A stretch of 58,173 nucleotides of DNA from a virus: positions 1 to 58,173 of IMG/VR virus record IMGVR_UViG_3300027741_000073; one strand, 5' to 3'. Shown piece after piece: positions 7,796 through 58,125 of this stretch. Made by a program: the position numbers and the translations under genes. The notes under the pieces were generated by a model that worked only from the letters and a program-made list of their open reading frames with translations, did no database searches and was not told where the DNA came from. The first letter of the stretch is position 1. The number at the start of each line of letters is the position of its first letter.

Positions 7796-8270
7796 TAAGT
7801 ACAATATTATAAAGGTACAAGTATCCTGCGTACCTAACTATGAAAAAGAAATTAAATTATTATTCTTTAGAATACTAGATGACTACATAAATAGATTTAA
7901 TGTAGAAATAGTAGTTGATAAAGCAAATATACAAATATGTTTTATTGAGTATGATGACCCTAAAGGTGAGACTTGTGGGCTACATATATTCAGTGAAGAT
8001 AATAAAAAGATCTTAATACAAATAAGAGATCCTCTTTTACATGGTTGGGAAGGTAACCCTTACACAATGGATAAAATGGCTAACATAGTATGCCATGAAT
8101 TCGTTCATGCTTGCCAAGCTCTAACTGGCAGAAATGGTTTTAGTATTCCTAAATTAAACTACAATAAAAATGATGAACAAGAACAATACTTCTTTGACCC
8201 CTGTGAAGTGGAAGCAAGAGCACTTGAAGCTCCCTACACAACGATGTATGCTCAGGCACTACTGCTATGA
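7782..8270 (+). CDS. Putative HExxH zinc metallopeptidase
   Basis: The start at 7782 (MSLSSKYNIIK) is preferred to 7749 because the upstream extension lies inside the previous gene. The 162-residue protein has a zinc-peptidase signature HEFVH at 105-109, in a helix preceded by MANIVC, and a downstream EVEARALE with E144 as possible third ligand. It resembles small gluzincin-type or SprT/IrrE-like domains. No signal peptide is seen, so it likely acts in the cytoplasm. Substrate unknown. Confidence 0.65.
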   Translation: MSLSSKYNIIKVQVSCVPNYEKEIKLLFFRILDDYINRFNVEIVVDKANIQICFIEYDDPKGETCGLHIFSEDNKKILIQIRDPLLHGWEGNPYTMDKMANIVCHEFVHACQALTGRNGFSIPKLNYNKNDEQEQYFFDPCEVEARALEAPYTTMYAQALLL

Positions 8271-11419: not shown

Positions 11420-13024
11420 ATGTCTAGATGGATACATGCACCATGCCCTAAATGTTCGTCATCAGACGCATTTAGCTATAAAGAAGATGATGAATTTGGT
11501 TTCTGTTTTAGTTGCCAAAAATCCTCACCTATTAACCCTAACCACAAACCAACTGAATATCACAAAGAGAACTACTCAATGCACACACTAGAGGAAATTA
11601 AAGAATATGACACTCGTGGATTTAAAGAACGTGGTATTACAAAAGCTACAGCAGCTCACTATGGAGTTAAAGTATCGTACGCAGAGGACGGTACTATTGC
11701 TAGCCATTTTTATCCTTACACTAAGGATGGAGTGGTCGTGGCATACAAAGAGAGAAAGTTACCTAAAACATTTGTCATCCATGGCAACTTTAAAGACATC
11801 CAGTTCTTTGGTCAAGCAACGGTTACTGGAGGAAAGAGGATTATTATCTGTGAAGGCGAACTCGATGCCCTCGCTGTGGCGCAAGCGCAGTATGACAAGT
11901 ATCAACGATACTACCCCTCCGTGGCCATTCCCTCGGCATCAGCAACCGCGTTAATCCTTGAACAACGTGAGTGGTTAAGAAACTTTGATGAAGTAGTTCT
12001 TATGTTTGACTCCGATGAAGCAGGACAAAAGGCTACTCAACAAGCGGCTAAGATAATTGGCTACGATAAAGTAAAGGTAGCTAGTCTACCCGAAAAAGAT
12101 CCTTGTGATGTACTAATCAAACAAGGTAGTGCTACACTAATGAGCTGTATCTTTGATGCAAGATCATATAGCCCTTCTGACGTTGTTAAAGGTGAAGCTG
12201 TATGGGAACAATTCAAACTTAAACAGAACACTGTATCATTAGCTTATCCTGAATGTCTCAAGACACTCAATGAGAAGCTCTATGGTATGCGTCTGGGTGA
12301 GATTGTTTTGTTCACATCAGGTACTGGCTCAGGTAAGTCAACTGTTATTAAAGAAATCGTAATGGAAATTCTTGACAAGACTACTGACATGGTTGGTATG
12401 GTCTCTCTTGAAGAGTCTGTTGGTGATACAGCAGAAAAGTTTATTGGTATGCAACTTAAGAAAAATCTTAAGACAGATAATGTTACCGAAGAAGAACAGT
12501 ATACAGCCTTTAAAACTATCTTTGGTGATGAACGCTTAGTGCTGTTAGATCACCAAGGTTCTGTTAGTGATGAATCACTCATAGATAAGTTAGAACACTT
12601 AGCCTTGATGGGCTGTAAGTATATCATCTTAGATCACATTACTATCGCTGTATCCGAAGGTGCTAAAGGTAAAACAGGTAATGAAGCAGTTGACTCCTTC
12701 ATGTCTGACTTACTTAAGATCACTAAGAAACACAACATCTGGCTTGGTGTTGTGTCTCACTTGCGTAAAGGTGAGAAGCCCTTTGAAGAAGGTCATATGC
12801 CTTCTATAGATGACATCAAAGGCTCAGGCTCTATTAAGCAGATTAGCTTTGACATCATTGCTTTTTGTCGCAACATGGTAGCTGACTCGGAAACTCTCCG
12901 TAACACTATCAGACTTCGAGTTTTAAAGTCTCGATTTACTGGTCGCACTGGTGACTGCGGTAATACATCGTATGACACAAACACTGGACGTCTTAAACAA
13001 ACTTCATTTGTAGACTTCGAATAA
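11420..13024 (+). CDS. DNA primase-helicase (T7 gp4-like)
   Basis: Bifunctional replisome enzyme, 534 residues (T7 gp4 is 566). The N-terminal zinc finger uses C9, C12, C29 and C32. A TOPRIM primase domain follows (IIICEGELDAL; LMFDSDEAGQKA). The helicase domain has Walker A SGTGSGKST with K306 and Walker B YIILDHITIAV, then a VVSHLRKG segment. It unwinds DNA and makes primers with the polymerase and single-strand-binding protein. TAATG junction with the RNA polymerase gene. Confidence 0.96.
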   Translation: MSRWIHAPCPKCSSSDAFSYKEDDEFGFCFSCQKSSPINPNHKPTEYHKENYSMHTLEEIKEYDTRGFKERGITKATAAHYGVKVSYAEDGTIASHFYPYTKDGVVVAYKERKLPKTFVIHGNFKDIQFFGQATVTGGKRIIICEGELDALAVAQAQYDKYQRYYPSVAIPSASATALILEQREWLRNFDEVVLMFDSDEAGQKATQQAAKIIGYDKVKVASLPEKDPCDVLIKQGSATLMSCIFDARSYSPSDVVKGEAVWEQFKLKQNTVSLAYPECLKTLNEKLYGMRLGEIVLFTSGTGSGKSTVIKEIVMEILDKTTDMVGMVSLEESVGDTAEKFIGMQLKKNLKTDNVTEEEQYTAFKTIFGDERLVLLDHQGSVSDESLIDKLEHLALMGCKYIILDHITIAVSEGAKGKTGNEAVDSFMSDLLKITKKHNIWLGVVSHLRKGEKPFEEGHMPSIDDIKGSGSIKQISFDIIAFCRNMVADSETLRNTIRLRVLKSRFTGRTGDCGNTSYDTNTGRLKQTSFVDFE

Positions 13025-15225
13025 TGAATCCACTCCAATATCTTTCTGAACGTGTATCCAAGGTAGTAATTAATTCAGACAAGATCTTTAATGAGGGTGC
13101 GCGTCTCCTTGCACATCACCCTACATGGGAATATGATCTTGAAAGATTTATTAATGAATCATGGGACACACTACTGCGATACTGCATACGTAACAAGAAT
13201 GCTACGCACAGTGCTTCAGTTAAACTCACCTTCGCATCTGATCTTATTGGGAAAAGAATTGCAAGGGCTATTGGCATTGATGAACACAACATCAAATCCA
13301 CCCTCTCTCTGGGAGATATTTTCCTTGAAACGTTCTTACAAGACGGTCTAATAGATATCTTTAGAGAGTATGAAGGTCGTAAAGCCCCTTACATGGTGCG
13401 TATTGTTAATCAAACAGATGACGTTAAGCCTACGCTTATCGGTACTTCATTTGAACCTCTGCTGCCTATTGCTGGGCTATACAGCAACCTTACTAAAGAA
13501 CCATTCATTAAAGGATGGACTAACAGCAAACTATTTCATGAGTATTTAAGTAAACCTTTTATTAAAAGTATGGAAACATTACGCCAACAACCTTGGTCGT
13601 TAAACCTACCTCTGTTAAAGGCTATGGAAGAGAATCATCCTACCGAAATACTTGAACTAGTAGATGCTGATGGTGAGATATACAAATATAATATCCACCA
13701 TGAAAACCTACACTTACCTAAGAAACTTAATCATATAGATGGTACAAAGTTCTTTGGTAAGAAAGACCCTAAGCTACAAAGACTTATAAGTAAATACTTT
13801 GAGTACAGTCAAGTAATAAAGAAAGCACAGCTAGTTGGTAATAGAACTTTCTATCAAGAAGTATCTTGCGACTATCGTGGACGAGTCTACTATGCAGAAT
13901 CATTCCTTGAGTTTCAAGGTAGTGACTTAGCACGTAGTCTCTTTTTATTCGCTAACAAAAAAGAAATGACTGATAAAGGTTTCTTTTGGCTTAAGGTTCA
14001 TACAGCAGCTTGCTATAATAAGTCATTCAACATTAATGATATGCCATCCTATTTCAGTACAGACTACAAGACGTACTTACAAGAAGAAGGTCTTGATACC
14101 ATATCATTAGACAAAATGACTCTTGAAGATAGAGCTGCATGGGTAGATAATAATATGGATAAGATTAGTAACATAGCTAGTCATGATGCTATAGATATGT
14201 CTGCTGAAAAGCCTTTTAGTTTGTTAGCATGTTGCTATGAAATCAAGAACTATATTAGAGCTAAGTCTGAAGGTAACTCCTACATGTCTGGCTTTCCTAT
14301 ACCTATTGATGGTAGTAATAATGGTTGGCAACATCTGGCTGCTATGTCTAAAGATAAACAAGCAGGTACCTTAGTGTCCTTGGTACCTACTCTTATTCAG
14401 AAAGACTTTTACGTAGCTGTTGCTAAAGAACTTATCAAGACTATGCCTGAGTGGTTTGAAGAAAAACAAATGCCTATGAAGCATATCCGTAAGGGTATTG
14501 CTAAACGAGGTTCAATGACTCGAGCATATAGTGCTGGTAAGAAGCGTATAGCTAAAAACATGTACGATGACTGTCATGTAGAAGGTTATACTGTTAAGTA
14601 CAACATAGACCAGGATCAATGTGACGTTCTAGCTGGTAACCTTATTAAGGCTATCAATGAAGTATGTGCTGGTCCACTTAAGACAACTAAATATCTTCAA
14701 AAGATTGCAGAACATGAACTCAACTCAAATAGAAATCACCTTGCTTGGCATACTCCTTCTGGTTTCCCTGTTATTTATAAAGCTTACCTTCAGCACGAAC
14801 GTAAACAAAGAGGTACAATACGGGGTATTCAAGGAAATAAAGATGGTCGTGTCATGCACGTTATTAAAGTGGATGTCCTCAATAAAGAGACTGGCGAACG
14901 AGTACCATGCCGTAGGAGTTATGCTTCGGGTATCAGTCCTAATGTTGTACATTCCTATGATGCTGCTCACATGGCTAATACTGTTGTTGGCTTCAACGGT
15001 AGCTTTGGTGCTGTCCATGATTCGTTTAGTACCCATGCTGATGAGGTGGATTTTCTACAAGAAATAACTAAGATAACCTTTGTTGCTCAATATGATATTG
15101 AAAACTTCTTTAACCTACTACAAGACACTCTTATGGAGAATAAAGAATTATTCACTTTCCCTCAGCCAGTAACAGGAAGCTTAAACCTACAAGAGGTTTA
15201 TAATTCAAAGTATTTCTTTTGCTAA
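13024..15225 (+). CDS. Single-subunit DNA-directed RNA polymerase (T7-like)
   Basis: The catalytic motifs of the T7 family are all present: IDGSNNGWQHLAAM with D429 (T7 Asp537), AKRGSMTRAYSAGKK with K494 and Y502 (T7 Lys631 and Tyr639), and GAVHDSFSTH with D666 (T7 Asp812), preceded by SPNVVHSYDAAH. At 733 residues it is shorter than T7 RNAP (883), mainly before the DYRGRVY motif, so promoter recognition probably differs. The C-terminus YFFC mirrors T7's aromatic foot. It likely reads the GGTACCTAATAGG sites found here. Confidence 0.96.
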   Translation: MNPLQYLSERVSKVVINSDKIFNEGARLLAHHPTWEYDLERFINESWDTLLRYCIRNKNATHSASVKLTFASDLIGKRIARAIGIDEHNIKSTLSLGDIFLETFLQDGLIDIFREYEGRKAPYMVRIVNQTDDVKPTLIGTSFEPLLPIAGLYSNLTKEPFIKGWTNSKLFHEYLSKPFIKSMETLRQQPWSLNLPLLKAMEENHPTEILELVDADGEIYKYNIHHENLHLPKKLNHIDGTKFFGKKDPKLQRLISKYFEYSQVIKKAQLVGNRTFYQEVSCDYRGRVYYAESFLEFQGSDLARSLFLFANKKEMTDKGFFWLKVHTAACYNKSFNINDMPSYFSTDYKTYLQEEGLDTISLDKMTLEDRAAWVDNNMDKISNIASHDAIDMSAEKPFSLLACCYEIKNYIRAKSEGNSYMSGFPIPIDGSNNGWQHLAAMSKDKQAGTLVSLVPTLIQKDFYVAVAKELIKTMPEWFEEKQMPMKHIRKGIAKRGSMTRAYSAGKKRIAKNMYDDCHVEGYTVKYNIDQDQCDVLAGNLIKAINEVCAGPLKTTKYLQKIAEHELNSNRNHLAWHTPSGFPVIYKAYLQHERKQRGTIRGIQGNKDGRVMHVIKVDVLNKETGERVPCRRSYASGISPNVVHSYDAAHMANTVVGFNGSFGAVHDSFSTHADEVDFLQEITKITFVAQYDIENFFNLLQDTLMENKELFTFPQPVTGSLNLQEVYNSKYFFC

Positions 15226-15227
15226 AG

Positions 15228-15247
15228 AGTCGGTACCTAATACCGAA
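15228..15247 (+). promoter_or_regulatory. Candidate phage RNA polymerase promoter upstream of RNR
   Basis: AGTCGGTACCTAATACCGAA lies in the 46-base gap between the RNA polymerase and ribonucleotide reductase genes, one of few gaps in this arm. It shares AGTCGGTACCTAATA with the site at 56511-56530. It probably starts a middle transcript for the reductase, thioredoxin and following genes. Confidence 0.7.
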
Positions 15248-15271: not shown

Positions 15272-17146
15272 ATGAACTCATATCAAGAACTAATCGCTAA
15301 ATCCCGCTATGCTCGATACCTACCTGAAAAGAATCGTAGAGAGAACTGGGGTGAAACAGCTGATCGATGGATCTCTTTCTTTAAAGAACAACTTAAAGAC
15401 ACAATACCTGTACATGACTCTGTATGGCCTTGCTTAGAGAATGAGATAAAAAGTTTAAACTCTCTTCCTTCTATGCGTTCTATTATGACTGCTGGGGAAG
15501 CCCTTACCCGAACTAACGTTGCAGCATACAATTGTAGCTATCTTCCTATAGATCATCCGCGTTGTTTTGATGAGGCCATGTACATCCTATTATGTGGTAC
15601 TGGCGTGGGCTTCTCGTGTGAAAACCAATATACTTCTTTATTACCTGATGTTCCTATTTTAATTAACAGTGATAAAATTATTACTGTAGAAGATAGTAAA
15701 GAAGGCTGGTGTGAAGCGTATAAATTATTAATAGCTCGTCTATATGCTGGTCAGATCTCTCAGTGGGATGTATCCTTAGTACGTCCAGCAGGAGCGCCAC
15801 TAAAGACTTTTGGTGGTAGAGCTTCTGGTCCAGGACCTTTGATTGATTTGTTTAACTACACTGTAAACAAGTTTAAACAAGCTTCTGGTCGTAAACTATC
15901 TGCTATTGAATGTCACGATATCATGTGTAAGATTGGTGAAGTAGTTGTTGTAGGTGGTGTACGTAGGTCAGCAATGATTTCATTAGGTGACTTAGGTAAC
16001 TATGACCATGCTACTGCTAAGACAGGTACTTGGTGGGAAAAATATGGTGAACGTGCATTAGCTAATAACTCAGCCGTATACCAAACAAAACCTTCTATTG
16101 GTGAGTTTATGAAGGAATGGTTAGATATATACAACAGTCACTCAGGTGAACGTGGTATCTTTAACCGTGAAGCCTCTCAAAAGCAAGCAGCTAAGTGGGG
16201 TCGTAGAGAGTTCAATGTACAGTATGGTACTAACCCTTGTTCAGAGATTATTCTTAAGCCATATCAGTTCTGTAACCTTTCAACTGTAGTTGTTACTGCT
16301 GATGATACTTTAGATACTCTCCGAACTAAGGTACGCTATGCTACTATTATGGGTACTATGCAGTCTACCCTTACTCACTTCCCTTATCTCCGTGATGTAT
16401 GGAAACAGAACACTGAACAAGAACGCTTGTTAGGTGTATCTATGACTGGTATCCTAGACAATCCTATCTTACGTGGTGAGGGTAAGCTTACCTTACAAAC
16501 AGTGCTTGAAATACTTCAAAAAGAAGCTCGTGATACTAATGAGCAATGGGCTGCAATGCTAGGTATCTCTGCTTCAGCAGCTATTACATGCGTTAAGCCT
16601 GAAGGTACTGTATCTCAATTAACCCTTACCTCAAGTGGTATCCATGCTGGACATGCACCACACTATATCCGTCGTATCCGTCAAGATAAGAAAGATCCAT
16701 TAACACAGTTCTTAATTGAACAAGGTGTTAACCATGAAGACTGTGTAATGAAGCCTGACCAAACAACTGTGTTCAGCTTCCCTATGAAGTCTACTGGATA
16801 TACTCGTAATGATTTAACTGCTCTTCAGCATTTAAAGATTTGGTTAGCTTACCAACGCCACTGGTGTGAACACAAACCTTCTGTTACTATCTCTGTTAAA
16901 GAACATGAATGGATGGAGGTAGGTGCATGGGTATACGAACACTTTGATGAGTGTACTGGTATTTCTTTCTTACCTGATGATGGTGGAACTTATCGTCAAG
17001 CTCCATATGAAACAATTGATTCATCTGTTTACAAACGTCTTTTAGATACACAACCAGAAGTTAACTGGGAACTGTTTACTGAAGACCGTGATAACGTAGA
17101 GGGTGCTCAAACATTAGCATGTACTGCTGGAGGATGTGAAATATGA
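15272..17146 (+). CDS. Class II (adenosylcobalamin-dependent) ribonucleotide reductase
   Basis: Monomeric B12-dependent reductase that makes deoxyribonucleotides anaerobically or aerobically. Seen: AAYNCSYL with redox C88, GTGVGFS, GGVRRSAMISLGD, NPCSEI at 321-326 (radical C323, E325), GTVSQL, and the C-terminal redox pair C617 and C622 in ACTAGGCEI. No small radical-generating subunit is encoded, consistent with class II. The thioredoxin gene overlaps its stop (ATGA) and probably reduces it. The enzyme needs host cobalamin. Confidence 0.95.
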   Translation: MNSYQELIAKSRYARYLPEKNRRENWGETADRWISFFKEQLKDTIPVHDSVWPCLENEIKSLNSLPSMRSIMTAGEALTRTNVAAYNCSYLPIDHPRCFDEAMYILLCGTGVGFSCENQYTSLLPDVPILINSDKIITVEDSKEGWCEAYKLLIARLYAGQISQWDVSLVRPAGAPLKTFGGRASGPGPLIDLFNYTVNKFKQASGRKLSAIECHDIMCKIGEVVVVGGVRRSAMISLGDLGNYDHATAKTGTWWEKYGERALANNSAVYQTKPSIGEFMKEWLDIYNSHSGERGIFNREASQKQAAKWGRREFNVQYGTNPCSEIILKPYQFCNLSTVVVTADDTLDTLRTKVRYATIMGTMQSTLTHFPYLRDVWKQNTEQERLLGVSMTGILDNPILRGEGKLTLQTVLEILQKEARDTNEQWAAMLGISASAAITCVKPEGTVSQLTLTSSGIHAGHAPHYIRRIRQDKKDPLTQFLIEQGVNHEDCVMKPDQTTVFSFPMKSTGYTRNDLTALQHLKIWLAYQRHWCEHKPSVTISVKEHEWMEVGAWVYEHFDECTGISFLPDDGGTYRQAPYETIDSSVYKRLLDTQPEVNWELFTEDRDNVEGAQTLACTAGGCEI

Positions 17147-17403
17147 ATAAACTAATTAAGATATATGCTGACTGGTGTGGTCCATGTAAGATTATGGATA
17201 GTATTCTTAAAGACATTAATCTTAAAGAGTTTAACACAACACTTGAGCCAGTTAATATAGACAATAGTAAAGAAATAGCTGTTAAATACAACGTAAAAAG
17301 TATACCCTTCTTTGCTCTTGAAGACTCTGAGGGTAACCTTTTACGCACCGCTATAGGTGCTATGACTCTTAAAGAAACAAGAGACTTTCTAGTAGGTACC
17401 TAA
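17143..17403 (+). CDS. Thioredoxin
   Basis: Small thioredoxin (86 residues, shorter than the usual 105-110) with the canonical active site YADWCGPCKIM; W11, C12 and C15 are present, as is the cis-proline region SIPFFAL. It is translationally coupled to the ribonucleotide reductase gene and is the likely electron donor for its C-terminal cysteine pair. A candidate phage promoter overlaps its stop codon. Confidence 0.93.
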   Translation: MNKLIKIYADWCGPCKIMDSILKDINLKEFNTTLEPVNIDNSKEIAVKYNVKSIPFFALEDSEGNLLRTAIGAMTLKETRDFLVGT

Positions 17404-17410
17404 TAGTAAA
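17391..17410 (+). promoter_or_regulatory. Candidate phage RNA polymerase promoter at thioredoxin stop
   Basis: AGTAGGTACCTAATAGTAAA shares GGTACCTAATAG with the other sites and straddles the thioredoxin stop codon. It would start a separate transcript for the last five genes of the arm, including the Dps-like gene, ending at the terminator at 18779-18814. Confidence 0.65.
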
Positions 17411-18778: not shown

Positions 18779-18814
18779 AACCCCTATTAGGAATAATCCT
18801 AGTAGGGGTTTTTT
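18779..18814. terminator. Bidirectional intrinsic terminator between the two arms
   Basis: Stem 18779-18792 pairs with 18797-18810 (14 pairs, one G-T) around an ATAA loop. A T-run follows on the plus strand and an A-run precedes it, so it can stop transcripts from both directions. It separates the convergent rightward operon and the leftward 1302-residue gene, whose stop lies at 18817-18819. Confidence 0.93.
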
Positions 18815-18816
18815 AT

Positions 18817-21800
18817 TTATTTAGCTTTAAGTAATACTTCGGCTAATACTTTAGCCTTCTCAGAGAACTTTCTTTCAAATCCATCATTAATAATTTTAGA
18901 AAGAACATCAGGACTATTTTCAAATCCAAGAACATAGTTACGTTCCCAATTCCAACCTTTATTACCAGAGTCTTCAGAAGATTTATTCTCTTCAATAGCT
19001 CTATCTAACATATTCTTTTCTTTAGTACTCTCAGATTCAACTTTAGGTTCAGGTTTAACCCATTCAACAAAGTTTCTAATAGCAGAACCACCAGCGCCTG
19101 TTGTAGTCATTTGAGCTATACCATGCTTCTTAATAAACTTATTATCAATCATAGCCTTGTATGCTCTATCTACTCCAGCACTGAATCCACTAACAAAAGT
19201 CTTACGGATATTTTCAGCTCCACCCATCTTTTCGTTGTTTTCAGCTAACGTAAACAAAGCTTTAAAAGCATTACGATTAACTGCTAGGTATTTGCTGTTA
19301 GGTTCCCATCCAAGAAGTTTAGCTTCTTTAAGCACTTGCTTAGTGTTAGCTACATACTTCTCCCAACCCTGATTAGCTTTACTTTTGCTGGTACGTTTAT
19401 CAAAGATCTTCTTATAAGAATCACTATTAAGTTTATCTTGTAAGTCATTAAAGTAACCACCAAGAACTTTATATCTACCTGTACTACCTATGTCAATGAA
19501 TTGACGTCCAGCTAAGATGTTATTAAATACATTGTTTTTAGCATTTTCATATGCTTCGTCTATGCGTTTACCAAACTGTTTTATCTCAGGTATAGCTTGT
19601 GGTATAGCAATATTATTATAAGCATTACGATATATATGCAATGATTCAGGACTAGTAATTAACGCATCATGAACTGTCATAATAGGCATTGGTATCTTTA
19701 AGTCTTTGTTAACATAGTTAAGCATTAATTTAAGTAAGTCAGCATCAGTAGATTGAACAGATAATACACCAATTTGTCGAGCTAAACGAGAACCATAAGG
19801 GTTGTTATAAGACTCATGTTTATTCTCTACAGCATTATAATATGATTGAACACCAGCAGTTGCTGAAGGAGTTAACCCACGTCTGCCTTCTCTGACAGCT
19901 AGGTTATTACCACCAACACTATAAATAGTTTCTTTATATCCTGGCATCATCTCTTGCGACTGACCTGAAGAAGAAGGTTGAATCCTATCTTTAGCTTCAT
20001 CTCTAGTAAATCCCATTTCAACAGTGCTGTATTGCATATCGTCTCCACCAACACCCTTATGGGTAGGTACTGTATCTAACATAGCAAACATACGACCATA
20101 TCGAGCAAGGTTCTTTGTGTATGTTGAATCAACTACTTTGCGTAAAGCACCTTCAAGACCTAAGTTTAAATCACGAGCAGCTTGAATAAGTACTGTTCCA
20201 TTCTTAACATCATTCTTATATACACCAGTCTTTTCTAAATGTTTCATAGCAAGTCTATTGTACTTACCATTGTTTAAAAACTCATACATATTTTCAAAGA
20301 ACATACCAGCATCTTTTGAATAAGAGTTTTCCATTAAAGGTTTTTTAATCAAGTCAGATACTACTGAATTACTTTCTTTTCTGACAGCTTCAAAAAAGTT
20401 CTTCCATGCAGTCATTACTTCAGGACGATCTGACAAAATATCATCCATCTGATCTAGCATAGTTGCATAAGTGTAATCACGCATATTACCTAAACTAGGG
20501 TCATATGTACTTAAGCGAAGAGCTGTGTTAGGATTACCAGCAAACAATGATTGAATGAAAATACCATTTTGGTTTCCATCATCAAAGTTCATTGCTGTAA
20601 CTTGTATTGGCATACGTTTCTTTGCTGGATCAATAAATGATTTTTGCGCTTGGAACATATCATCCCACAAGTTTTGGTTAGCAGAAGCTTCACCTCGCTC
20701 CATACCTGCTAATAGATTAACAATCTCAGGACTAGCCTTAGTTGGATCTTCTAACCATTCATTATACATCTTACCTATATTAGCTAAGTAAGCACCAATC
20801 TCAGGTGTGTATGCCATGATATTATCTGCTGGAGCTTTACCAGCAACCTTAGTTTTAATACCTTCAGGTGCAGTATAGTTATAGTAGTTATTAACCGCCA
20901 TTTCCATTAAGCCTAATGCTGATCTTTGATATGGTGTTAGCGCCATTAATGCTTGGTGTTGTTCAACTCCTGGCTTAGTCTTATTAAAAACTCTATTAGC
21001 TAATGCTTTTAGGTTATCAATTTCTTTTGTGTCAAACAAGTCAGACACTTGTATAATAGATTTAACACCAAAGTTAAGCATCTCTCTTATAGCGCTCTTA
21101 GAACTAATAATATCGGTATCAGGATTACGTCTATCAAAACGGTGATTAGCAGTTGCATGAGCATAAGATGTATACAACAAATGACCTAGATCTTTTTGTG
21201 CTAAACCTAAATCATACTTCAACCTAGCTAATCTGTTCTGCATCTCTTCACGAGCATGTTCATCTTGTTTAGCTTCATATTGAAGTTGTTTGTTGCTATC
21301 ATTAGCATTATAATCTTCGTCTTTACCTACAGCGTTCTTTAATGAATTAAAAGCAGTCTCACCCATCTTATGACGATCAGCAAAGATACTTTTGCTAAAG
21401 CCTGACTCATCATCAAACTTAGCAGTTACATCTTCAAGCTGTTTCATAAGTGAGTTAACCGACTTAGGATTAAACATCTCAGCTATACGACCTAAAATAT
21501 TCTTAGCGTAAAATGCACCGTTATGTTTAGTTCCTGGAGCCATCTTAGAGTTCTTAGTAATCTGGTTACCCTGATTAATGAACTCACCTAATGGAACACG
21601 AGAAGCCATATGCCTACGTTCAGAGCCAGTAACAGCTGCAGCTAAATCTTCAAGAGCTTTACTTTGATCCTTTAGAGCTTTTGAAGGGGCAAACATAGGC
21701 ATACCATCTTTATTCTGATACTCTAATAGATGCCCATTACCATACTTACCAGCAAAAGCTGCTTGAGCTAATTTGTATGATGTTCCATCTGGAAGATTCA

Positions 21801-22725
21801 AACCACGATTAGCTAAGGCAGTATCAAATGCAGCAGCAGTTGCGTTAATAATATTTATCTCATTAGCTTCATCATTGTTCTCTACATTAGACCCGTCAGG
21901 ATTAATGCCAGTACTAGGCGAAGACATTTGAGTTACAGCACGAGCAAAACTAAGAGCTATATACGAAGGAACAATCTTAAGGGCGTTAGATAAACTTTCA
22001 CCCTCAAGACCAGCATCTTGTAGTATCTCTGTACCAGCCGCAATACCTGTATTGTATAATTCACCTGTATCAGGATTTATTTTAGGTACTTTAACTGACT
22101 CAGAGTTGTTAGAGAATAGTTCATTCCTAATACTTTGAGTGGCATACTCAAGAGGAGTAGCCGCTGTTATAGACTTTTGTTCTATCTTCTCAGGAGACAG
22201 GTTAGTAAACCCAGCTTCATTAGATTTTTCAAACAAAGACCTAGCAGTATCAGCAGCACTATCTCCAAACTCATCTAAGTTTGCATTAGAAAAATCCCTT
22301 AGACCACTCAATTGACGTTGTTGTTCTTTTTGATAATCATCTAAAGGAACTTCTCTAGATAATGGATTGCCACTTTCATCTCTAGCTACATTACCTTGTT
22401 CATCTAATACAGGCTCATAAGGTCTGTTAAGAAGGTATGGATTACCTGTAGCGCCTACTAATGAACTGTTGTCAGTTACATCAGGTTGCACGTGTACCCC
22501 TGCCATACCAGCAAATTTAGGCTTAGGGATTTCCATTGTAGCTGCAACAATAGGAGGGACATTAGCAATGTTTTGTAAAGGATTAGCTCCTGACTCAGGA
22601 GAGACAGGCAAAGTTGGTTCTGGATTTATTTGCCGTTGAATTTCTTCAGCTGAATTTACACCATTAGGTGCTAATGTTCTAAGTCCAGATCCAGGACCTT
22701 GGGGGTTTTGTATAAAACGTGCCAT
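18817..22725 (-). CDS. Candidate virion RNA polymerase (N4-like single-subunit RNAP)
   Basis: The 1302-residue protein is the last of the ejection-protein genes. Motifs of the T7/N4 polymerase fold appear in order: TANHR at 525-529 (the TxxGR position), NFDDGNQNG with D716 (motif A), IKKPLMENSYS with K794 and Y802 eight apart (motif B), and MTVHDALI with D1020 (motif C), preceded by VQSTDADLL as in T7 VHSQDGSHL. Spacing between A, B and C is 78 and 226, near T7's 94 and 181. The Arg four before K794 is Ser, a weak point. The first 500 residues may be a packaging or ejection domain. The inferred role is early transcription after injection. Confidence 0.7.
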   Translation of the reverse strand: MARFIQNPQGPGSGLRTLAPNGVNSAEEIQRQINPEPTLPVSPESGANPLQNIANVPPIVAATMEIPKPKFAGMAGVHVQPDVTDNSSLVGATGNPYLLNRPYEPVLDEQGNVARDESGNPLSREVPLDDYQKEQQRQLSGLRDFSNANLDEFGDSAADTARSLFEKSNEAGFTNLSPEKIEQKSITAATPLEYATQSIRNELFSNNSESVKVPKINPDTGELYNTGIAAGTEILQDAGLEGESLSNALKIVPSYIALSFARAVTQMSSPSTGINPDGSNVENNDEANEINIINATAAAFDTALANRGLNLPDGTSYKLAQAAFAGKYGNGHLLEYQNKDGMPMFAPSKALKDQSKALEDLAAAVTGSERRHMASRVPLGEFINQGNQITKNSKMAPGTKHNGAFYAKNILGRIAEMFNPKSVNSLMKQLEDVTAKFDDESGFSKSIFADRHKMGETAFNSLKNAVGKDEDYNANDSNKQLQYEAKQDEHAREEMQNRLARLKYDLGLAQKDLGHLLYTSYAHATANHRFDRRNPDTDIISSKSAIREMLNFGVKSIIQVSDLFDTKEIDNLKALANRVFNKTKPGVEQHQALMALTPYQRSALGLMEMAVNNYYNYTAPEGIKTKVAGKAPADNIMAYTPEIGAYLANIGKMYNEWLEDPTKASPEIVNLLAGMERGEASANQNLWDDMFQAQKSFIDPAKKRMPIQVTAMNFDDGNQNGIFIQSLFAGNPNTALRLSTYDPSLGNMRDYTYATMLDQMDDILSDRPEVMTAWKNFFEAVRKESNSVVSDLIKKPLMENSYSKDAGMFFENMYEFLNNGKYNRLAMKHLEKTGVYKNDVKNGTVLIQAARDLNLGLEGALRKVVDSTYTKNLARYGRMFAMLDTVPTHKGVGGDDMQYSTVEMGFTRDEAKDRIQPSSSGQSQEMMPGYKETIYSVGGNNLAVREGRRGLTPSATAGVQSYYNAVENKHESYNNPYGSRLARQIGVLSVQSTDADLLKLMLNYVNKDLKIPMPIMTVHDALITSPESLHIYRNAYNNIAIPQAIPEIKQFGKRIDEAYENAKNNVFNNILAGRQFIDIGSTGRYKVLGGYFNDLQDKLNSDSYKKIFDKRTSKSKANQGWEKYVANTKQVLKEAKLLGWEPNSKYLAVNRNAFKALFTLAENNEKMGGAENIRKTFVSGFSAGVDRAYKAMIDNKFIKKHGIAQMTTTGAGGSAIRNFVEWVKPEPKVESESTKEKNMLDRAIEENKSSEDSGNKGWNWERNYVLGFENSPDVLSKIINDGFERKFSEKAKVLAEVLLKAK

Positions 22726-22727
22726 GC

Positions 22728-25700
22728 TTAATTACCTTTCATATCATTTAAAATGTCTACTGTTTTTCTAGATACAATAGGAAATGAACCTACTACTGGA
22801 AGACTACGCATAAGTTTTTGCGCACCCTTCTCAGGTCTACCTTCTAGAACATCAGCAACACCTTCACCAGTACGAGCTACATAGTTAAAGGTTGGGGACT
22901 TATCCTTAGCTTGTTCATAAGCCCATTTTCCAGGTTGTTCAGTAATTTTTGTTTTAGACTGTGGATATACTGGAGATACAAAGTCAGATAGTCTTTCAAA
23001 CTGACCTAACAAACCTGAAGAATGTATATTACGTTGTGCTCTCTTAGCTTTACCTTTTACATAAGGACTTTCTTCCCCATAAGATAATTGATCTTTAAGA
23101 GCATTACCTACGCTAGCCATTAACAATGCACTAGCCATAGTAACAAACGCGGAGTAACCCATACCTGCATTATTGCTTAACAAATATTGCTTGTACAGTC
23201 TTGGAAGGATAACAGCGTGAGCTGCGGCCATAAAACGAGTCATAACAGTAAACACCCTTAAATAAGGATTGTAATAATACTTAGGAATATTATATGGTTG
23301 AGGATTAACAACACGAGAATCAACAAAGTTACCTAATGCTGTTTGTATATTGTCATATACAGCTTTAGTGCTGTCATTCATTTCATCACGATTTCTTTCA
23401 GAAAAAGCATTATTAAAAAAATGAATATTATTTTGATCAGACTCTGCATCTACAGCATTCATTAATGCTTGTACATTAAGACCATACTGTTGTAGCTCCG
23501 CTAACGCAGCTGCTTGTGCTTTATTAAGACCTTGACCTGTAGCTAAGGCTACTTCTCTAATATTAGGGTCTACTTGAGCAAGAGTCATTACTTGGTTCAT
23601 CATAATATCGCCAGCAACAGTTAACACGGCTATACGCATAGCATCTGTTTGTGCTCTTAAACCAATCATAGATGCAAAGAAAGCCATAGCATTTTGTTGT
23701 CGTGAATCATTAAATTCAAACTTAGATTGTACGTTAGATATCTCATGTCTAAAGCCAAGGTTTTGCATCATCTCTCTAACAAAGAACCTATCTTTAAGAG
23801 CTAATAACTCTACATCTTTATCTATAGCGTCTAATTGTTCTTTTAATTCAATCTTACGATCTAAATCTTTAAGACTATTAGAACTTGATTGCTCTAGCTT
23901 TTTGTATTCATTATCTAACAATGTTCTTTGATCTTCATATTTTTGTATCTTAGCACTAAGAGTGCTATCAGTACTAGAGAATGCCCAGCTTGAGTACAAT
24001 CTACCTATTCCAAAGTTAGCTGCTTTCTTTATATCATCGCCTAGCTCTGATTTAAATTCTTTTGCAAATGTTTCTAATTGCTTTAAGAACAATTCATGAG
24101 GAGTACCTAACATAGTATATGGTACTTCAGCCATAGAAGATATAGTAGCTTTACCTAAAGCTGCAGTCATAGCAGCAGTATTAAGCCAACCAACAACTTT
24201 AGATAAATAAGGATGATCATCCATTGAATGGTAATTACCCTTTACAATTTCAAAGAAAGCTTGTGACTCACCAACAGCTGATTTAAAAGCTAATAATGCT
24301 TTATCACCTGTTCCAAACTCACCATTGTTCCATGCTTTAGATAAACCTTTGGCAAGTACTTCTCCATTTTTACCAAAATATTTTGCAACACCAATATCTC
24401 GAGCCAAACGACTTTTAACTGATTGAACATTATCTAATATATTTGATTCAAAGAATTGACTTAAGCTAGGGTTATTAAACATACCTAGTCCAGCTAAATA
24501 GTCTTTAGCTAACTCTGCCTTCTCTCTGTTACCAGAAACAAGGTTGTTAACTGCTTTACTTATTTCATGAAGATGTTCAGATGGATTTGCTTTAGATAAC
24601 TCATCTAATATAAAAGCTTTATTTTTATTCCATTGTTTAAGATCAACTAAATTAGAATCTAACAAGCTAGTTGGATCAAGAAGAACCCTAGATGCTACCC
24701 CACCAACACTATCAGCTTGACTTCTTAAGGTATTAACAGCTTCTTGTTGTTCTACCCACCATTTGTTTAACTCTTTGTTAATTAAATTTTGTTTATCATC
24801 ACCAGTATTTTGATTAAGATATGCACCTTGCTTCCAAGTTGTTACTGCATCTTTAATATAGGTATCTAACAAATTTTTATTAATATTTAATTTACCAGCC
24901 AATGTAGTACCATCAGTTTTTACTGTATCACCTATTAAGTTTTGAACAAATCTATGGAATGATGCTCCAGGAAGTATACCGTCTCCAGCATACATAGCTT
25001 TTAAAGCACCTAAGTAATATTTAGAATTTCCATTTTCATCTGTTATAGATGGAAACATTTTATCAATTTGTCTACCCATAAATGTAGTAAATGGGGACAA
25101 CAAAGATCTACCTACACTTGCAAGACCTCTTGATGCAGGTAACTTGTACAAATCATCAGTAGCATGTTCATCATTTAAATTAAAGTTACTATTTCTTATT
25201 TGTGATGCAGCCTGTTCAGCACTTACAAAACCACCATTATTTGTTTTAAGACGTTGATTGTTATCTGATTGATATTGTTGAGCATCAGAGATATTACCTT
25301 CATAATTCTTAAGACCACTATCAATGGCATGCCACTGAGCTGTATTGGTTATCATACGTGGAGCCATGAATGAAGCAGAAAAACCTAATCCACCTAATCC
25401 TGCATTAAGCATTGTACGAGAAAAGCCTGCTTCATTTTCTGGAGTAAAATTTCTTTTACCAGCTGAACCAAGTAATTCCATATACTCTTGAGTCATCTCT
25501 TGACTAGATTGTATAGCAGAATTTTCTACTGCATACAGTGAGCCACGTAATAAAGCTTCTTTAGATAGATATTGTTTTTTAGCAAAGTCATGAGAGTAGT
25601 CAGCAAGAGCTAACAATTCTTTTTTAGTTCTTTGTTCTATATCTATTAACGCTGCCTCTTTAGTTGCAGCTCTGCCTGTTTGAACCATAGCTTCCGCTAA

Positions 25701-27152
25701 TTTAGCTCTAGAACCTGAAGCAAAGATATTATTAAGCGCAGAAGTACCTCCGAACATACCTTTTAATTCTAGTTGTTCAGCTAACTGTTCGAAAGTACCT
25801 GTGCCAATAGCTAATGCCATATCTTTTTTACCTTCTGGTTGAGCACCATAATTCTTACCAGCAAATAAAAGTGTTCCAGGAATTATAGTAGATGCCCCAG
25901 CAAATGGCCCACCCATACCTGCTACTGCAACCATTGTTGGTAAAGAACCTACAATAGAGCTTGCTACAGTGTTTGTAACAGCAGATAATTTACCCCATGT
26001 GCTTTTACCACTGTTAAATGTTTCCATAATAGTGTCATTACCACCAACACTACCTTCTGCATCTAACATTATTTGGGCATTGCTCCATGCTCTACGACCA
26101 GCTTTACTTAAATAATTTAATTTAGCTTCAGGGTCAGCTTTAGTAAAGGCATCTTGATTTGGCTTACTACCAAAATATTTTTCATAAGCATCACCAGTCA
26201 TAGCTGCTACACCAGCACCCCATTGAGCTGTCTTTAAACCACCTTGGTATAAAGAATCCAAATAATAATTGTCATGCATTTGATTATCAATATTACGATC
26301 ATTTTTATTAAATTTAATAAAACTAGTATTATAAAAGTTTTGCATGTTAGTTACTTGTTGTAATCTAATTTGAGCTTCAAGAAGTTCTTTACGTTTTTCA
26401 GCAATAGCATTATCAGTTAAAGCGTAATCAGTAAATCCTTTTTGTGTAGGGTCTTTAGCCCTCTCATGCATGGCAATTGTATCTTGAAGATCTTTAATGT
26501 TATCAGTAAGGTTAGCAATACCTTTATTAGAATACATTGCTTTAAAGCCAGCTAATTCTTCTGGATTAGCCGCAGTAACTTTAGGTAATACTGGAGGATA
26601 GTTACCCGCTTTAGCAGCAGCTAATTCTTCTTCTTTTACTTTTAAACCAGCTCTTAAATAAGGATTACGTTCAAGAACAGAAGGAAATACTTCGGCATTA
26701 GCTGCATTAGAAAGACGTTGATTACTAGCTTCTGGGGTAGTTTCTTTGCTGACAGGAGCTAAGAAATTACGTACTAAAAAGTCTTGTGCTTTATCGCCTA
26801 CTTGATTTTGACGTTCTAAAAGAACGCGACGGCTAGGAGTCGAATCACGACCTTTAGTTATACCCGTATTGTATCCCATCTCGGATAACGCTTGTGGGGC
26901 TAAAACAGAAGCACCTTGATTTTCACCAAATTTAATAGTACCAGTAACTGGATCAAATCGAGTTACCTCGGGTTGGTTAATTCCATAGTCACGATATTTT
27001 ACGTTATCCTTAATAAAGGTGTCTGCATCTATAAACCTATCTTGGCTAAACACAACAGATTTAAGGCTTGATTTTTTACCATCAATAGAGACATCTTTTA
27101 ATGTGGATGCATCTTTGTCCATTGCTGCAAGGGTGTCTTCTATTGTAATCAT
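22728..27152 (-). CDS. Large internal/ejection virion protein with SNase-like N-terminus
   Basis: The 1474-residue product is typical of large podovirus ejection proteins: long helical stretches, coiled coils (KYEDQRTLLDNEYKKLEQS), and hydrophobic segments near 400-440 (TMVAVAGMGGPFAG) and close to the C-terminus (SAFVTMASALLMASVGNAL). Residues about 38-65 resemble staphylococcal nuclease: RFIDADTF, then VKYRDYGINQPEV, with D44, R54 and E62 in nuclease positions but Asn59 in place of Asp. Probable role: forms the DNA-ejection conduit. Nuclease activity is doubtful. Confidence 0.75.
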   Translation of the reverse strand: MITIEDTLAAMDKDASTLKDVSIDGKKSSLKSVVFSQDRFIDADTFIKDNVKYRDYGINQPEVTRFDPVTGTIKFGENQGASVLAPQALSEMGYNTGITKGRDSTPSRRVLLERQNQVGDKAQDFLVRNFLAPVSKETTPEASNQRLSNAANAEVFPSVLERNPYLRAGLKVKEEELAAAKAGNYPPVLPKVTAANPEELAGFKAMYSNKGIANLTDNIKDLQDTIAMHERAKDPTQKGFTDYALTDNAIAEKRKELLEAQIRLQQVTNMQNFYNTSFIKFNKNDRNIDNQMHDNYYLDSLYQGGLKTAQWGAGVAAMTGDAYEKYFGSKPNQDAFTKADPEAKLNYLSKAGRRAWSNAQIMLDAEGSVGGNDTIMETFNSGKSTWGKLSAVTNTVASSIVGSLPTMVAVAGMGGPFAGASTIIPGTLLFAGKNYGAQPEGKKDMALAIGTGTFEQLAEQLELKGMFGGTSALNNIFASGSRAKLAEAMVQTGRAATKEAALIDIEQRTKKELLALADYSHDFAKKQYLSKEALLRGSLYAVENSAIQSSQEMTQEYMELLGSAGKRNFTPENEAGFSRTMLNAGLGGLGFSASFMAPRMITNTAQWHAIDSGLKNYEGNISDAQQYQSDNNQRLKTNNGGFVSAEQAASQIRNSNFNLNDEHATDDLYKLPASRGLASVGRSLLSPFTTFMGRQIDKMFPSITDENGNSKYYLGALKAMYAGDGILPGASFHRFVQNLIGDTVKTDGTTLAGKLNINKNLLDTYIKDAVTTWKQGAYLNQNTGDDKQNLINKELNKWWVEQQEAVNTLRSQADSVGGVASRVLLDPTSLLDSNLVDLKQWNKNKAFILDELSKANPSEHLHEISKAVNNLVSGNREKAELAKDYLAGLGMFNNPSLSQFFESNILDNVQSVKSRLARDIGVAKYFGKNGEVLAKGLSKAWNNGEFGTGDKALLAFKSAVGESQAFFEIVKGNYHSMDDHPYLSKVVGWLNTAAMTAALGKATISSMAEVPYTMLGTPHELFLKQLETFAKEFKSELGDDIKKAANFGIGRLYSSWAFSSTDSTLSAKIQKYEDQRTLLDNEYKKLEQSSSNSLKDLDRKIELKEQLDAIDKDVELLALKDRFFVREMMQNLGFRHEISNVQSKFEFNDSRQQNAMAFFASMIGLRAQTDAMRIAVLTVAGDIMMNQVMTLAQVDPNIREVALATGQGLNKAQAAALAELQQYGLNVQALMNAVDAESDQNNIHFFNNAFSERNRDEMNDSTKAVYDNIQTALGNFVDSRVVNPQPYNIPKYYYNPYLRVFTVMTRFMAAAHAVILPRLYKQYLLSNNAGMGYSAFVTMASALLMASVGNALKDQLSYGEESPYVKGKAKRAQRNIHSSGLLGQFERLSDFVSPVYPQSKTKITEQPGKWAYEQAKDKSPTFNYVARTGEGVADVLEGRPEKGAQKLMRSLPVVGSFPIVSRKTVDILNDMKGN

Positions 27153-27155: not shown

Positions 27156-29945
27156 TTAGTCTTTCTTATTTTGTTTTGCTATTAAAGATTTATAATACTC
27201 TAACGCAGGTGACTTACCAAGAGGAGCGTCATCTAAGAATTTATTATAAGCTTTTGGATTGTTCTTTTTAAGATCAGCCCAATTGTCTTCAATATTTTTA
27301 GCCATAACAGCGGGAGTTATATCTAAAGTTTTATTAGCAGCCTGAGCCTGTTTAGCTAACCTACCTACTTCATGACCAGCTTCTAATTGTTGTTGAGTAT
27401 TTCCTTTTGAAAGGAAATTCTTATTATTAGTAGTATCTGATTTAACTTCCATTAAAGGACTATTAGCACCTGTTTTAATAACATTAGTTTGAATAGCTAG
27501 TTCTAAATTCTCTTGGTTAATAGGCATTTTAGAATTAACTAAATGTTGATAAGCATCGTTAACAATACGAGCAACCTGAGTATCATTAGCTTTAGTCATT
27601 CCCATATTGTAAAGTACGTTATGAGTTGCTTCAACTAATTGAGGTTTATTATAATTCTTAACGTCTTCACCTTTTTCATTCTTAATTGTTTCAGGTATGC
27701 TACTTGATATTGCACTTTTTAACTTACTAGTATTAAGCTCTTCAGTACCCTTAAATGAGTATTTACTCATATCAAGAGGAGAACCGTCTAATGTAGTATA
27801 TCTTTGATTAACTGGTGCTCTAGGGTCAAATATAGCATTAACAGCTACACCATTAGAATCAGTAACTAAAGTAACTTGTTGAACAGGAGAAGGCATGTTA
27901 ACAGTATTGCCTTTGTCTTTGTGTTGAACATTCATAGACATCAACACAGTAGCTTTACGTAGATTATTACGTTGTTCTTCAATACGGTCTTCAGGTTCTT
28001 TGCTTTTAAGCGGTGCATAAGCAAGGCTAAAAGCTTGATTGCGCACATTCATTGGAACATCTTTGCTGGCAAAGTCTTCAAAACGATCTCTATCCTTTTC
28101 ATATTCTTTACGCAATTCTTTTCTATCAGCAGTTAGCTTAGTCATTTCATCTTTACGTTCTTTAGCTATTACACGTTGATCTTCAATTTGATAGCGTTTT
28201 TCTTGACCAGCCATTTGAACAGCGGCAGTACGAACAGCACGATCATCTGACTTTTCTGCACGACGATCTGCTGCTATCTCAGCGGATTCTCTTCCTTGAC
28301 GTTGTAATGAAGTCTCAAAAGCATTTTTACCAGCAAATGAGAATGACCTAGCACTATTATATCCACGAGCACGACTACCTAAATACATTACAGCCATACG
28401 AGCTACTTCTTGATTGTTTAAACCAAGAGTGTCTTTAAGACCTTTGTATGAAAAGATATTTTTAAACGATTCAATGAATCCTTTGTCATCATTCTTGTAC
28501 CTATCAGCTGCTTTTTCTACATCACTATTAGCACCTTTAAATTGTTTAATCCAATAGTCAGGATTAGTACGGTCTTCTTCAGAGCCTTTAGGTGGGAACT
28601 TAGGTGGAGGAGTTAGACTTCTGCTTGCACTTGCAGCAGGTGCAGCTTCAGGGTTCTTATTCCTATCCATGTTGTTTACTTCAGAAACTGTATCAATAGA
28701 TAAATCTGGTGGTACAGCTGTAGGAGTTGGTACAACAGCAACAGTAGCTTTAGGTACAGGAGATACTTCAGCAATATTTACTGGCTTAGGTTGACCTTCT
28801 TGTCCTGCTTTATATTTATCAGCAACATTACGCATAGTGGTTTCATCTAAACCATCTTCTGTGTCAGGGTTACGACCAGTAGCCCTCATATAATATTCTT
28901 TCCATGCTGTAGGGTGGTTTTCTGATTTAAGCATTGAACCGTTTGGTGTAGAAGAAGGCCAATGGTATTTATTATTATCTTCAGGTGAGCGTTCAGGCAT
29001 TATACCTGCATCCCATGCTTTACGATAATCGTAGTTAGCATTTTTACTTAAATCAGGTGGCTCACCATATTCTTTATTAAATTCGCTATACCATTCAGTA
29101 CCTTTCATAGCACGTTGAAATCGATCTTCAGGATTATCTTGAATACCAGCTGGGTTAAACCCACCACCAACATCATATCCAGAAACGTTTTCTACACCAT
29201 TTTCATAATGAGGTACATAACCACCATGCATCATTGGTATACCATTATATATAGAACCATCTGCATTAACATTAGGAGCCATTTCTAATTCATGCGCACT
29301 AGTAGTGCCATCCGCATAACAGGCTTTACCATCCTTATAAACCACATTCATTGAGCCTTCAGCATATTTATCTGGGTTGTACATTTGCTCATATTGAGCA
29401 TTTAATGTACCATCTTCATAACCCATACGTTTCTTTACGGGTTTAACAGTAGGTAACATAGCTAATTGATGAGGAATGTCAACAACACCAGTTGTACCGC
29501 GAGCATGATGTTGTGCCTGACGACCTTGTTGAACCATCTTAGCTATCATAGGTTTATTACGTGGGTCTTGAGCAGCAGCTCTTGGTATGACTGCCTCTCC
29601 AGGAGTTAACATAGCAGGAACTGTATCAGTACCTTGAGCCAACATGTGTTGACCTTGTTTAAACATACCTGTACCAGACATAGGGTTAGAAGAAGGTAAG
29701 CCTAATTTTTCACGATTCATACGTGGTTTATTACCTAATGGTCCACCTAATTCATTTACTTTTAAGCCATGAAGTTCTTCTTTATGACCAATACCTTGGT
29801 GTGCTTTTGCAGCAGCTTCCATAAGTTTAACTTCATGTAATTGATCTTTACGACTCTCTTCTTTTTCCATCTTAGCGGATTCACGAGACTCTTTTGCAGA
29901 GAACTTTAACCATTCTCTATGTTGTTTACCTGATAGTGGCCCCAT
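27156..29945 (-). CDS. Large internal virion protein, 929 aa
   Basis: Adjacent to the other large ejection proteins and close to their size class. The N-terminus is highly charged and helical. A conserved segment GTDTVPAMLTPGEAVIPRAA near residue 111 is common in phage internal or tape-measure proteins. A proline-rich linker (TPPPKFPPKGSEED) and a long charged helix (about 560-650) follow. Probably packaged and ejected; no enzyme motif seen. Confidence 0.7.
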   Translation of the reverse strand: MGPLSGKQHREWLKFSAKESRESAKMEKEESRKDQLHEVKLMEAAAKAHQGIGHKEELHGLKVNELGGPLGNKPRMNREKLGLPSSNPMSGTGMFKQGQHMLAQGTDTVPAMLTPGEAVIPRAAAQDPRNKPMIAKMVQQGRQAQHHARGTTGVVDIPHQLAMLPTVKPVKKRMGYEDGTLNAQYEQMYNPDKYAEGSMNVVYKDGKACYADGTTSAHELEMAPNVNADGSIYNGIPMMHGGYVPHYENGVENVSGYDVGGGFNPAGIQDNPEDRFQRAMKGTEWYSEFNKEYGEPPDLSKNANYDYRKAWDAGIMPERSPEDNNKYHWPSSTPNGSMLKSENHPTAWKEYYMRATGRNPDTEDGLDETTMRNVADKYKAGQEGQPKPVNIAEVSPVPKATVAVVPTPTAVPPDLSIDTVSEVNNMDRNKNPEAAPAASASRSLTPPPKFPPKGSEEDRTNPDYWIKQFKGANSDVEKAADRYKNDDKGFIESFKNIFSYKGLKDTLGLNNQEVARMAVMYLGSRARGYNSARSFSFAGKNAFETSLQRQGRESAEIAADRRAEKSDDRAVRTAAVQMAGQEKRYQIEDQRVIAKERKDEMTKLTADRKELRKEYEKDRDRFEDFASKDVPMNVRNQAFSLAYAPLKSKEPEDRIEEQRNNLRKATVLMSMNVQHKDKGNTVNMPSPVQQVTLVTDSNGVAVNAIFDPRAPVNQRYTTLDGSPLDMSKYSFKGTEELNTSKLKSAISSSIPETIKNEKGEDVKNYNKPQLVEATHNVLYNMGMTKANDTQVARIVNDAYQHLVNSKMPINQENLELAIQTNVIKTGANSPLMEVKSDTTNNKNFLSKGNTQQQLEAGHEVGRLAKQAQAANKTLDITPAVMAKNIEDNWADLKKNNPKAYNKFLDDAPLGKSPALEYYKSLIAKQNKKD

Positions 29946-29946: not shown

Positions 29947-30453
29947 TTAAATCCATTTCATTTGTTTAGCAAGTAATAAACCACCTATTAGCCCTAATGG
30001 ACCACCCACAGCAGCTAGCATACCAGTACTTGCTAAGCCAGCACCCATAGTTGCTAACGAAGTACCTTCAGCTGCAGCCGCCGCTGGGCCAATAAGAGCA
30101 GCACCTTCACCTAAAGTAGCAGCAGTAGCAGCACCTTCACCTAGAGTAGCAGCAGTAGAAGCATTTCCTACAATACTTGGAAGAGGTTCCACAACATTAG
30201 AAGTTTCTACAACAGGAGCTAAAGGAGCAGCAACTTTTGCAGGTGTCATTGTTTTAAAACCAGCATCAATACCCGCATTAATACCTCTGTTAACAATTAT
30301 TTGTTGAGCCATTTGGCCTAATCCAGGTGGTCCCTGCGTAATTTGTGGTTGTTGAGGGTTATTTTGAGGTACTTGTAAAGTATTGTTTGTTTGAGGTACA
30401 TTAGGATAACGCATTGGTTCATTAGCCCAATCCCAAGGATCTTGATAACTCAT
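29947..30453 (-). CDS. Ala/Gly-rich virion protein with C-terminal membrane segment
   Basis: The 168-residue protein has a Pro/Gln-rich N-terminus and an Ala/Gly/Thr repeat (AATLGEGAATAATLGEGAAL). The C-terminus is hydrophobic (MLAAVGGPLGLIGGLLLAKQ), so likely membrane-interacting. Its placement suggests a small ejection protein like T7 gp14. Preceded by GGAGG and a TAATG junction. Confidence 0.65.
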   Translation of the reverse strand: MSYQDPWDWANEPMRYPNVPQTNNTLQVPQNNPQQPQITQGPPGLGQMAQQIIVNRGINAGIDAGFKTMTPAKVAAPLAPVVETSNVVEPLPSIVGNASTAATLGEGAATAATLGEGAALIGPAAAAAEGTSLATMGAGLASTGMLAAVGGPLGLIGGLLLAKQMKWI

Positions 30454-35995: not shown

Positions 35996-36015
35996 TTTCC
36001 TATTAGGTACCGATT
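35996..36015 (-). promoter_or_regulatory. Candidate leftward phage promoter before PhoH
   Basis: The minus strand reads AATCGGTACCTAATAGGAAA, matching AGTCGGTACCTAATAGG nearly fully. It lies in the 27-base gap between the endolysin and PhoH genes. It would boost PhoH, nozzle and ejection-protein transcripts. Confidence 0.75.
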
Positions 36016-53080: not shown

Positions 53081-53100
53081 TTTCCTAATAGGAACCGACT
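53081..53100 (-). promoter_or_regulatory. Candidate late promoter upstream of large terminase
   Basis: The minus strand reads AGTCGGTTCCTATTAGGAAA, two changes in the core from AGTCGGTACCTAATAGG. Located 20 bases before the terminase start, it is the only such site at the head of the 34-kb leftward operon. The RNA start is likely at the AGG. Confidence 0.75.
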
Positions 53101-54212: not shown

Positions 54213-54298
54213 TCATTGCTCTTCTCGGGTAGATAACGGAGAGACCACTTGGGGTATGTACCAAGACATTCATCAACGCCATTTCTAAGGAGATACAC
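54213..54298 (+). promoter_or_regulatory. Leader of the 54299 gene
   Basis: An 86-base gap with a CTTGG/CCAAG hairpin (54248-54265) and TCTC/GAGA complementary parts further upstream, then AAGGAG before ATG. No phage-promoter consensus or clear host promoter. Confidence 0.4.
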
Positions 54299-56510: not shown

Positions 56511-56530
56511 AGTCGGTACCTAATAGGGAG
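56511..56530 (+). promoter_or_regulatory. Best candidate phage RNA polymerase promoter
   Basis: AGTCGGTACCTAATAGGGAG, ending like T7 promoters (CTATAGGGAG). It points right toward the end of the small terminase gene and the ssb gene beyond. Just downstream are two strong hairpins (56537-56565, 56581-56612), so its transcript either stops early or continues antisense to the small terminase. Confidence 0.75.
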
Positions 56531-57099: not shown

Positions 57100-57119
57100 T
57101 TATCTATTAGGTACCATCT
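57100..57119 (-). promoter_or_regulatory. Candidate leftward phage promoter for small terminase
   Basis: The minus strand reads AGATGGTACCTAATAGATAA, sharing GGTACCTAATAG with the other sites. It is 23 bases upstream of the small terminase start and faces away from the ssb gene. Confidence 0.7.
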
Positions 57120-57747: not shown

Positions 57748-58125
57748 ATGAAACTCACTAAAACTCAATTAAACTATGCTGAATCTAAACTCAATCGTAA
57801 GATTAATGAGTTACAGAACAAAAACGCTCCAGCCTATGTAGCTGACAGTCTTGAGACTCCTAACGGTATCTATGATGCTCTCGTTGCTATGGGTGTACCA
57901 GTAATGAGTCGTGAAGAGTTCAATAAAGAAACTTGCTGGTACAACTATCGTGATATTACTAAGATCATCAAGTTCCCTGAACAATTTACTAATAAAGCAA
58001 CAGCTTATAACGATGCAGCTACAGCTAATCGTGAGTACTACGAAAAGCTCCGTGAATCCATGCTCGATAAACTCTATCTTGCTGGTGATGCACAAGATGC
58101 CCTTGACTTAATCGAAAGCCTCTAA
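57748..58125 (+). CDS. Hypothetical protein, 125 aa
   Basis: Start at 57748 (MKLTKTQLNYAESKLNRKIN) has TTAAGG upstream; an ATG at 57709 in the same frame lies in the terminator. Helical product with ETPNGIYDALVAMGVPVMSR and DAQDALDLIESL. It continues across the contig junction; its 3' end is repeated, with changes, at 2-94. Confidence 0.78.
   Translation: MKLTKTQLNYAESKLNRKINELQNKNAPAYVADSLETPNGIYDALVAMGVPVMSREEFNKETCWYNYRDITKIIKFPEQFTNKATAYNDAATANREYYEKLRESMLDKLYLAGDAQDALDLIESL

Follow-up and report, generated by a model that had tools for sequence, protein, structure and literature searches.

The window analysed here is a virus record of 58,173 bp, IMG/VR record IMGVR_UViG_3300027741_000073, taken at its full length. 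A terminal direct repeat of 142 nt at 97% identity (positions 1-142 and 58032-58173) indicates that the record is probably a complete genome. It is syntenic with Roseobacter phage CRP-7, a podovirus of 58,106 bp (PMC6918029): DNA polymerase, exonuclease, primase and T7-type RNAP run rightwards, then a leftward late block begins with three or four large proteins of unknown function. The features considered are the following.

18817..22725, minus strand: candidate virion single-subunit RNA polymerase, 1302 aa, with catalytic set R529, D716, K794, Y802 and H1019-D1020.
13024..15225, plus strand: canonical T7-type RNA polymerase, 733 aa, in the early/middle block (PF00940, 4.8e-58; phrog_414, 4e-97; 31.5% identity to CRP-7 gp30).
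22728..27152, minus strand: 1474-aa protein directly upstream of the RNAP in the late block, without Pfam or PHROG match, syntenic with CRP-7 gp34; candidate ejection protein from position and size only.
27156..29945, minus strand: 929-aa late protein, syntenic with CRP-7 gp35; candidate ejection protein from position and size only.
29947..30453, minus strand: 168-aa late protein; possible small ejection protein from position and size only.
18779..18810: bidirectional terminator-like hairpin between the converging early/middle and late blocks, with the same sequence in G002, G006 and G012 (G001-G012 denote genomes of relatives).
15228..15243, plus strand: promoter-like repeat AGTCGGTACCTAATAC, just after the canonical RNAP gene.
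17391..17406, plus strand: promoter-like repeat AGTAGGTACCTAATAG.
36000..36015, minus strand: promoter-like repeat inside the late block.
53085..53100, minus strand: promoter-like repeat at the head of the leftward late block, upstream of terminase.
56511..56526, plus strand: promoter-like repeat AGTCGGTACCTAATAG, followed by GGGAG; first rightward copy, about 3.4 kb into the early region.
57104..57119, minus strand: promoter-like repeat upstream of the leftward gene 56637-57077.
54218..54265, plus strand: conserved two-hairpin element of the early region, with the conserved loop core GGGTATGTAC at 54252-54261.

In addition, a B12-dependent ribonucleotide reductase-like gene lies next to the canonical RNAP gene (15272-17146), while in CRP-7 the RNR genes lie in the late block, and a family-A DNA polymerase is encoded at 8267-10114.

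A preliminary description of the sequence had proposed that the product of 18817-22725 is an N4-like virion RNA polymerase and the last gene of an ejection region. The observation behind this proposal is confirmed. The ORF starts with ATG and reads 1302 aa without an internal stop, on the minus strand, which had not been specified. All motifs named are present: TANHR (525-529), DGNQNG with D716, KKPLMENSY with K794 and Y802, QSTDADLL, and VHD with D1020, and S790 stands where T7 has R627. The landmarks of the known enzymes were compared with the T7 (R425, D537, R627, K631, Y639, H811, D812) and N4 mini-vRNAP (R424, D559, R666, K670, Y678, D951) sequences and are correct, and the K-to-Y spacing of 8 holds in all three proteins. 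The canonical T7-type RNAP at 13024-15225 had been overlooked.

The single protein gave no relevant match in Pfam, PHROG, PDB-sequence or phage tblastn searches; weak Pfam hits to 2-oxoglutarate dehydrogenase and SpvD are below cut-off and were treated as chance. A profile search of PDB sequences also gave nothing, and a scan of IMG/VR with the single protein found no relative. The positional counterpart in CRP-7, gp33 (QBQ72826.1), annotated as hypothetical protein, has the same architecture and aligns with the window protein from around motif C to the C-terminus (E 3e-8), at about 15-18% identity overall; the paper on CRP-7 predicts only ORF30 as RNAP (PMC6918029). Starting from gp33 and a joint alignment, scans of IMG/VR gave about 45 loci. 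No relative was found in 84,980 bacterial and archaeal genomes, nor in the phage collection apart from CRP-7, the only isolate with a homolog. The relatives are 1196-1474 aa long and none of 32 members has a PF00940 hit. In an alignment of 32 homologs R529, K543, R547, D716, Q719, Y802, D994 and D1020 are invariant, H1019 is conserved in 31 of 32, and K794 is Lys in 26 and Arg in 6. The motifs are thus more than chance, and only T525 and N527-H528 of TANHR are not conserved. The position equivalent to T7 R627 is Ser in the window and K, S, A, T, N or G in the others. The most divergent members are 15-18% identical to the window protein.

An AlphaFold model of residues 150-1302, built on the 32 sequences, had a pLDDT of 80.5 and a pTM of 0.77. 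The lack of a right-hand polymerase fold, named beforehand as an outcome that would speak against the proposal, was not observed: the 50 best PDB matches are all single-subunit RNAPs, i.e., yeast and human mitochondrial RNAP (1e-14), T7 RNAP and N4 mini-vRNAP (both about 1e-10), with E-values from 1e-14 to 2e-9. The viral library returned phage T7-type RNAPs and Schitoviridae vRNAPs, with DNA polymerases only far down. A separate model of a CRP-7-clade homolog, which has Arg in place of the motif B Lys, gave the same class. The superposition is domain-wise and not tight, as rmsd is large and TM-scores are 0.3-0.5 (Foldseek, 0.4-0.5). Judged from secondary-structure placement rather than from interatomic distances, D716 is at the end of a strand, H1019-D1020 is in the turn of a beta hairpin, and K794 lies in a helix that ends at Y802, as expected for palm and fingers.

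Unguided hhalign of the family against a nine-sequence T7-family profile aligned D716 with D537, K794 with K631, Y802 with Y639 and H1019-D1020 with H811-D812, and a second segment aligned R529 with R425. The score is weak (probability 5.9%, E 0.0064 for one comparison; reversed control 0.48), and against N4 vRNAP it is weaker still (E 0.13, slightly better than the reversed control at 0.64), while T7 against N4 gives 6e-6. By sequence the family is thus a third, remote branch, and its assignment to the single-subunit RNAPs rests on fold plus register.

The gene is the last of the leftward late block and faces the early/middle block in the window, in CRP-7 and in G001-G012, which is the place of N4 gp50. 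A canonical T7-type RNAP is also present in 17 of 20 records carrying the family; the three without are partial contigs. The window has 8 matches to the promoter-like repeat (AGTCGGTACCTAATAG), 6 of them intergenic, against 0.44 expected for all matches. Relatives have the same sites at the head of the late block, inside it, and in the early/middle block, with the variant TCCCCTAATAG in G001, G005 and G007, whereas CRP-7 has neither and instead repeats TATTAAAAGG five times. These sites are best read as promoters of the canonical RNAP. In the window, G001, G005 and G007 the first rightward copy lies 3.4-4.2 kb from the divergence point, inside the early region, and the first early genes therefore need another polymerase, either host RNAP or the candidate virion RNAP. 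N4 works in the latter way (PMC4496689; PMC12633501). Host sigma70-type promoters could serve the early genes; a scan found no excess of such promoters over shuffles, which is uninformative without a known host.

The best explanation is that the ORF encodes a DNA-dependent RNA polymerase of the single-subunit (T7/mitochondrial/N4) fold, made late with the structural proteins and probably packaged in the capsid. It would probably be injected with the ejection proteins to transcribe the first few kilobases of early genes, before the canonical T7-type RNAP takes over the repeated AGTCGGTACCTAATAG promoters. The polymerase fold is close to certain, while a virion RNAP acting first has a probability of about 0.74. 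The computations establish the fold, the catalytic residues, their conservation across a family, the coexistence with a canonical RNAP and the N4-like gene position, whereas packaging, injection, RNA synthesis, early transcription and the choice of promoters are inferred, from position and from the existence of a second, early RNAP. As the T7 R627 equivalent is not conserved and the K631 equivalent is Arg in the CRP-7 clade, reduced or altered activity cannot be excluded. The interpretation in the preliminary description is therefore partly supported: a single-subunit RNAP placed like N4 gp50 is borne out, a virion location remains an inference, and membership of the N4 group is not supported.

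The first alternative is a second phage RNAP that acts inside the cell late in infection without being packaged, as a duplicated or captured T7-type enzyme. Phages with two T7-type RNAPs are known, and Vibrio phage Peru-2 has a second putative one between DNA metabolism and structural genes (PMC13320782). This is nevertheless unlikely, as gene order in all genomes examined puts the gene last in the late block beside large proteins without family match and not among replication genes, and the canonical RNAP already has repeated putative promoters at the late block. Less likely still is a degenerate polymerase fold reused as a structural ejection protein without catalysis. The variable R627 position, the Arg in the CRP-7 clade and the Ser of the window where 28 of 32 have Gly after Y802 would agree with this, but both metal-binding Asp, the catalytic Tyr, the motif-T Arg and the HD motif are invariant or nearly so over homologs as low as 15-18% identity, which purely structural reuse would not require. 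A family-A DNA polymerase or reverse-transcriptase-like enzyme, suggested by weak Pfam DNA_pol_A matches in 7 of 32 members (best E 0.0016), is very improbable given the RNAP-like K-to-Y spacing of 8, the RNAP-only PDB matches, the low rank of DNA polymerases in the viral library and the genome's own family-A DNA polymerase.

The protein shares with N4 gp50, the Schitoviridae vRNAP, the single-subunit fold, the gene position, a second T7-type RNAP in the same genome and, in detail, motif A DGxxNG and motif B KxPL. It differs in having 1302 aa instead of about 3500 (architecture from PMC12633501), in lacking the giant N- and C-terminal domains, in having HD and not FD as motif C, and in showing no pairwise or significant profile match to N4 vRNAP; the genome is 58 kb and CRP-7 is not classed in Schitoviridae. 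With T7 and Autographiviridae RNAP (PF00940) it shares all catalytic residues in register, the HD motif C and the S/Q-x-x-D-G motif before it, but it has no Pfam hit, carries a large N-terminal extension and sits in the late rather than the early block, and the true PF00940 member of this genome is another gene. Virion RNAPs have also been proposed in the non-N4 podoviruses vB_PunP_Y3 (ORF30; Poorviridae), from PSI-BLAST to N4 (PMC11654794), and StenR_269, from size, lack of Cys and helicity (PMC10747016); the comparison with these is limited to a lack of pairwise hits in the phage collection. The giant vRNAP is described as a hallmark unique to Schitoviridae (PMC12633501). If the protein is packaged, this is an N4-like strategy outside the N4 family, and a compact family of about 1300 aa in an unrelated, widespread marine phage group would show that starting infection with an injected RNAP is a more general strategy. 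It would also give a far smaller enzyme to study how a polymerase is packed, threaded through a tail and refolded, and a cultured phage carries it. The analysis re-annotates a protein family absent from Pfam and PHROGs.

In the early region no excess of hairpins with a 3-nt loop, the form of the N4 early promoters, was found; a different conserved two-hairpin element with 8-nt loops is present. Eight of ten genomes examined carry, 0.56-1.7 kb from the divergence point and on the early strand only, one or two copies of this element, ending in a stem around the conserved loop GGTAWGTA and sometimes in tandem 38 nt apart. It was found in the window, at loci L075, L076, L080, L082, L086 and L090 and in many IMG/VR contigs, whereas CRP-7 itself lacks it. 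The stems show strong compensatory changes: in 22 distinct stem-arm pairs gathered from IMG/VR, 81 of 88 positions are Watson-Crick against a mean of 39 when arms are shuffled (maximum 59 in 2000), and no Rfam family matches in the window, so that a known RNA family was rejected. The element may be a hairpin promoter or, perhaps more likely because of its two helices and an ACC linker complementary to the GGT of the loop, a leader RNA structure. Of seven element-bearing contigs in which a canonical RNAP was found, five (G022, G024, G025, G027 and G028) also have a second large RNAP and the other two, of 34 and 46 kb, are likely fragments; eight chance-match contigs have neither. Shared ancestry of marine phages could explain this association.

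In G022 (locus L227) and G028 (L226:776-5194, plus strand) the second RNAP is a 1473-aa protein whose residues 4-453 match head-morphogenesis families (phrog_241, 1e-51; Phage_Mu_F, 7e-12) and whose residues ~916-1434 match T7-type RNAP (PF00940, 2e-6, above cut-off; hhalign E 3e-10). The RNAP domain is thus fused to the C-terminal part of a Mu gpF/SPP1 gp7-like minor head protein, and is close to T7 and not to the family of the window; in G028 the gene lies between portal and capsid genes. The Naomviridae siphophages DSS3_VP1 (MN602266, 21242-25633) and DSS3_PM1 have this protein at 47% identity over full length, annotated as minor head protein-like, and no comment on the RNAP domain was found in that annotation, a statement that does not extend to the literature. 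It is tempting to speculate, although we consider it doubtful, that packaging of a single-subunit RNAP in the virion arose more than once, as a free-standing late (ejection-block) protein in the window/CRP-7 group and fused to the minor head protein in Naomviridae, and that both start infection at a shared class of structured two-hairpin early promoters with GGTAWGTA loops. In EBPR siphovirus 1 (JF412302, 25771-31144) the homolog of the head-RNAP fusion appears split by an HNH endonuclease gene, as by an inserted mobile element.
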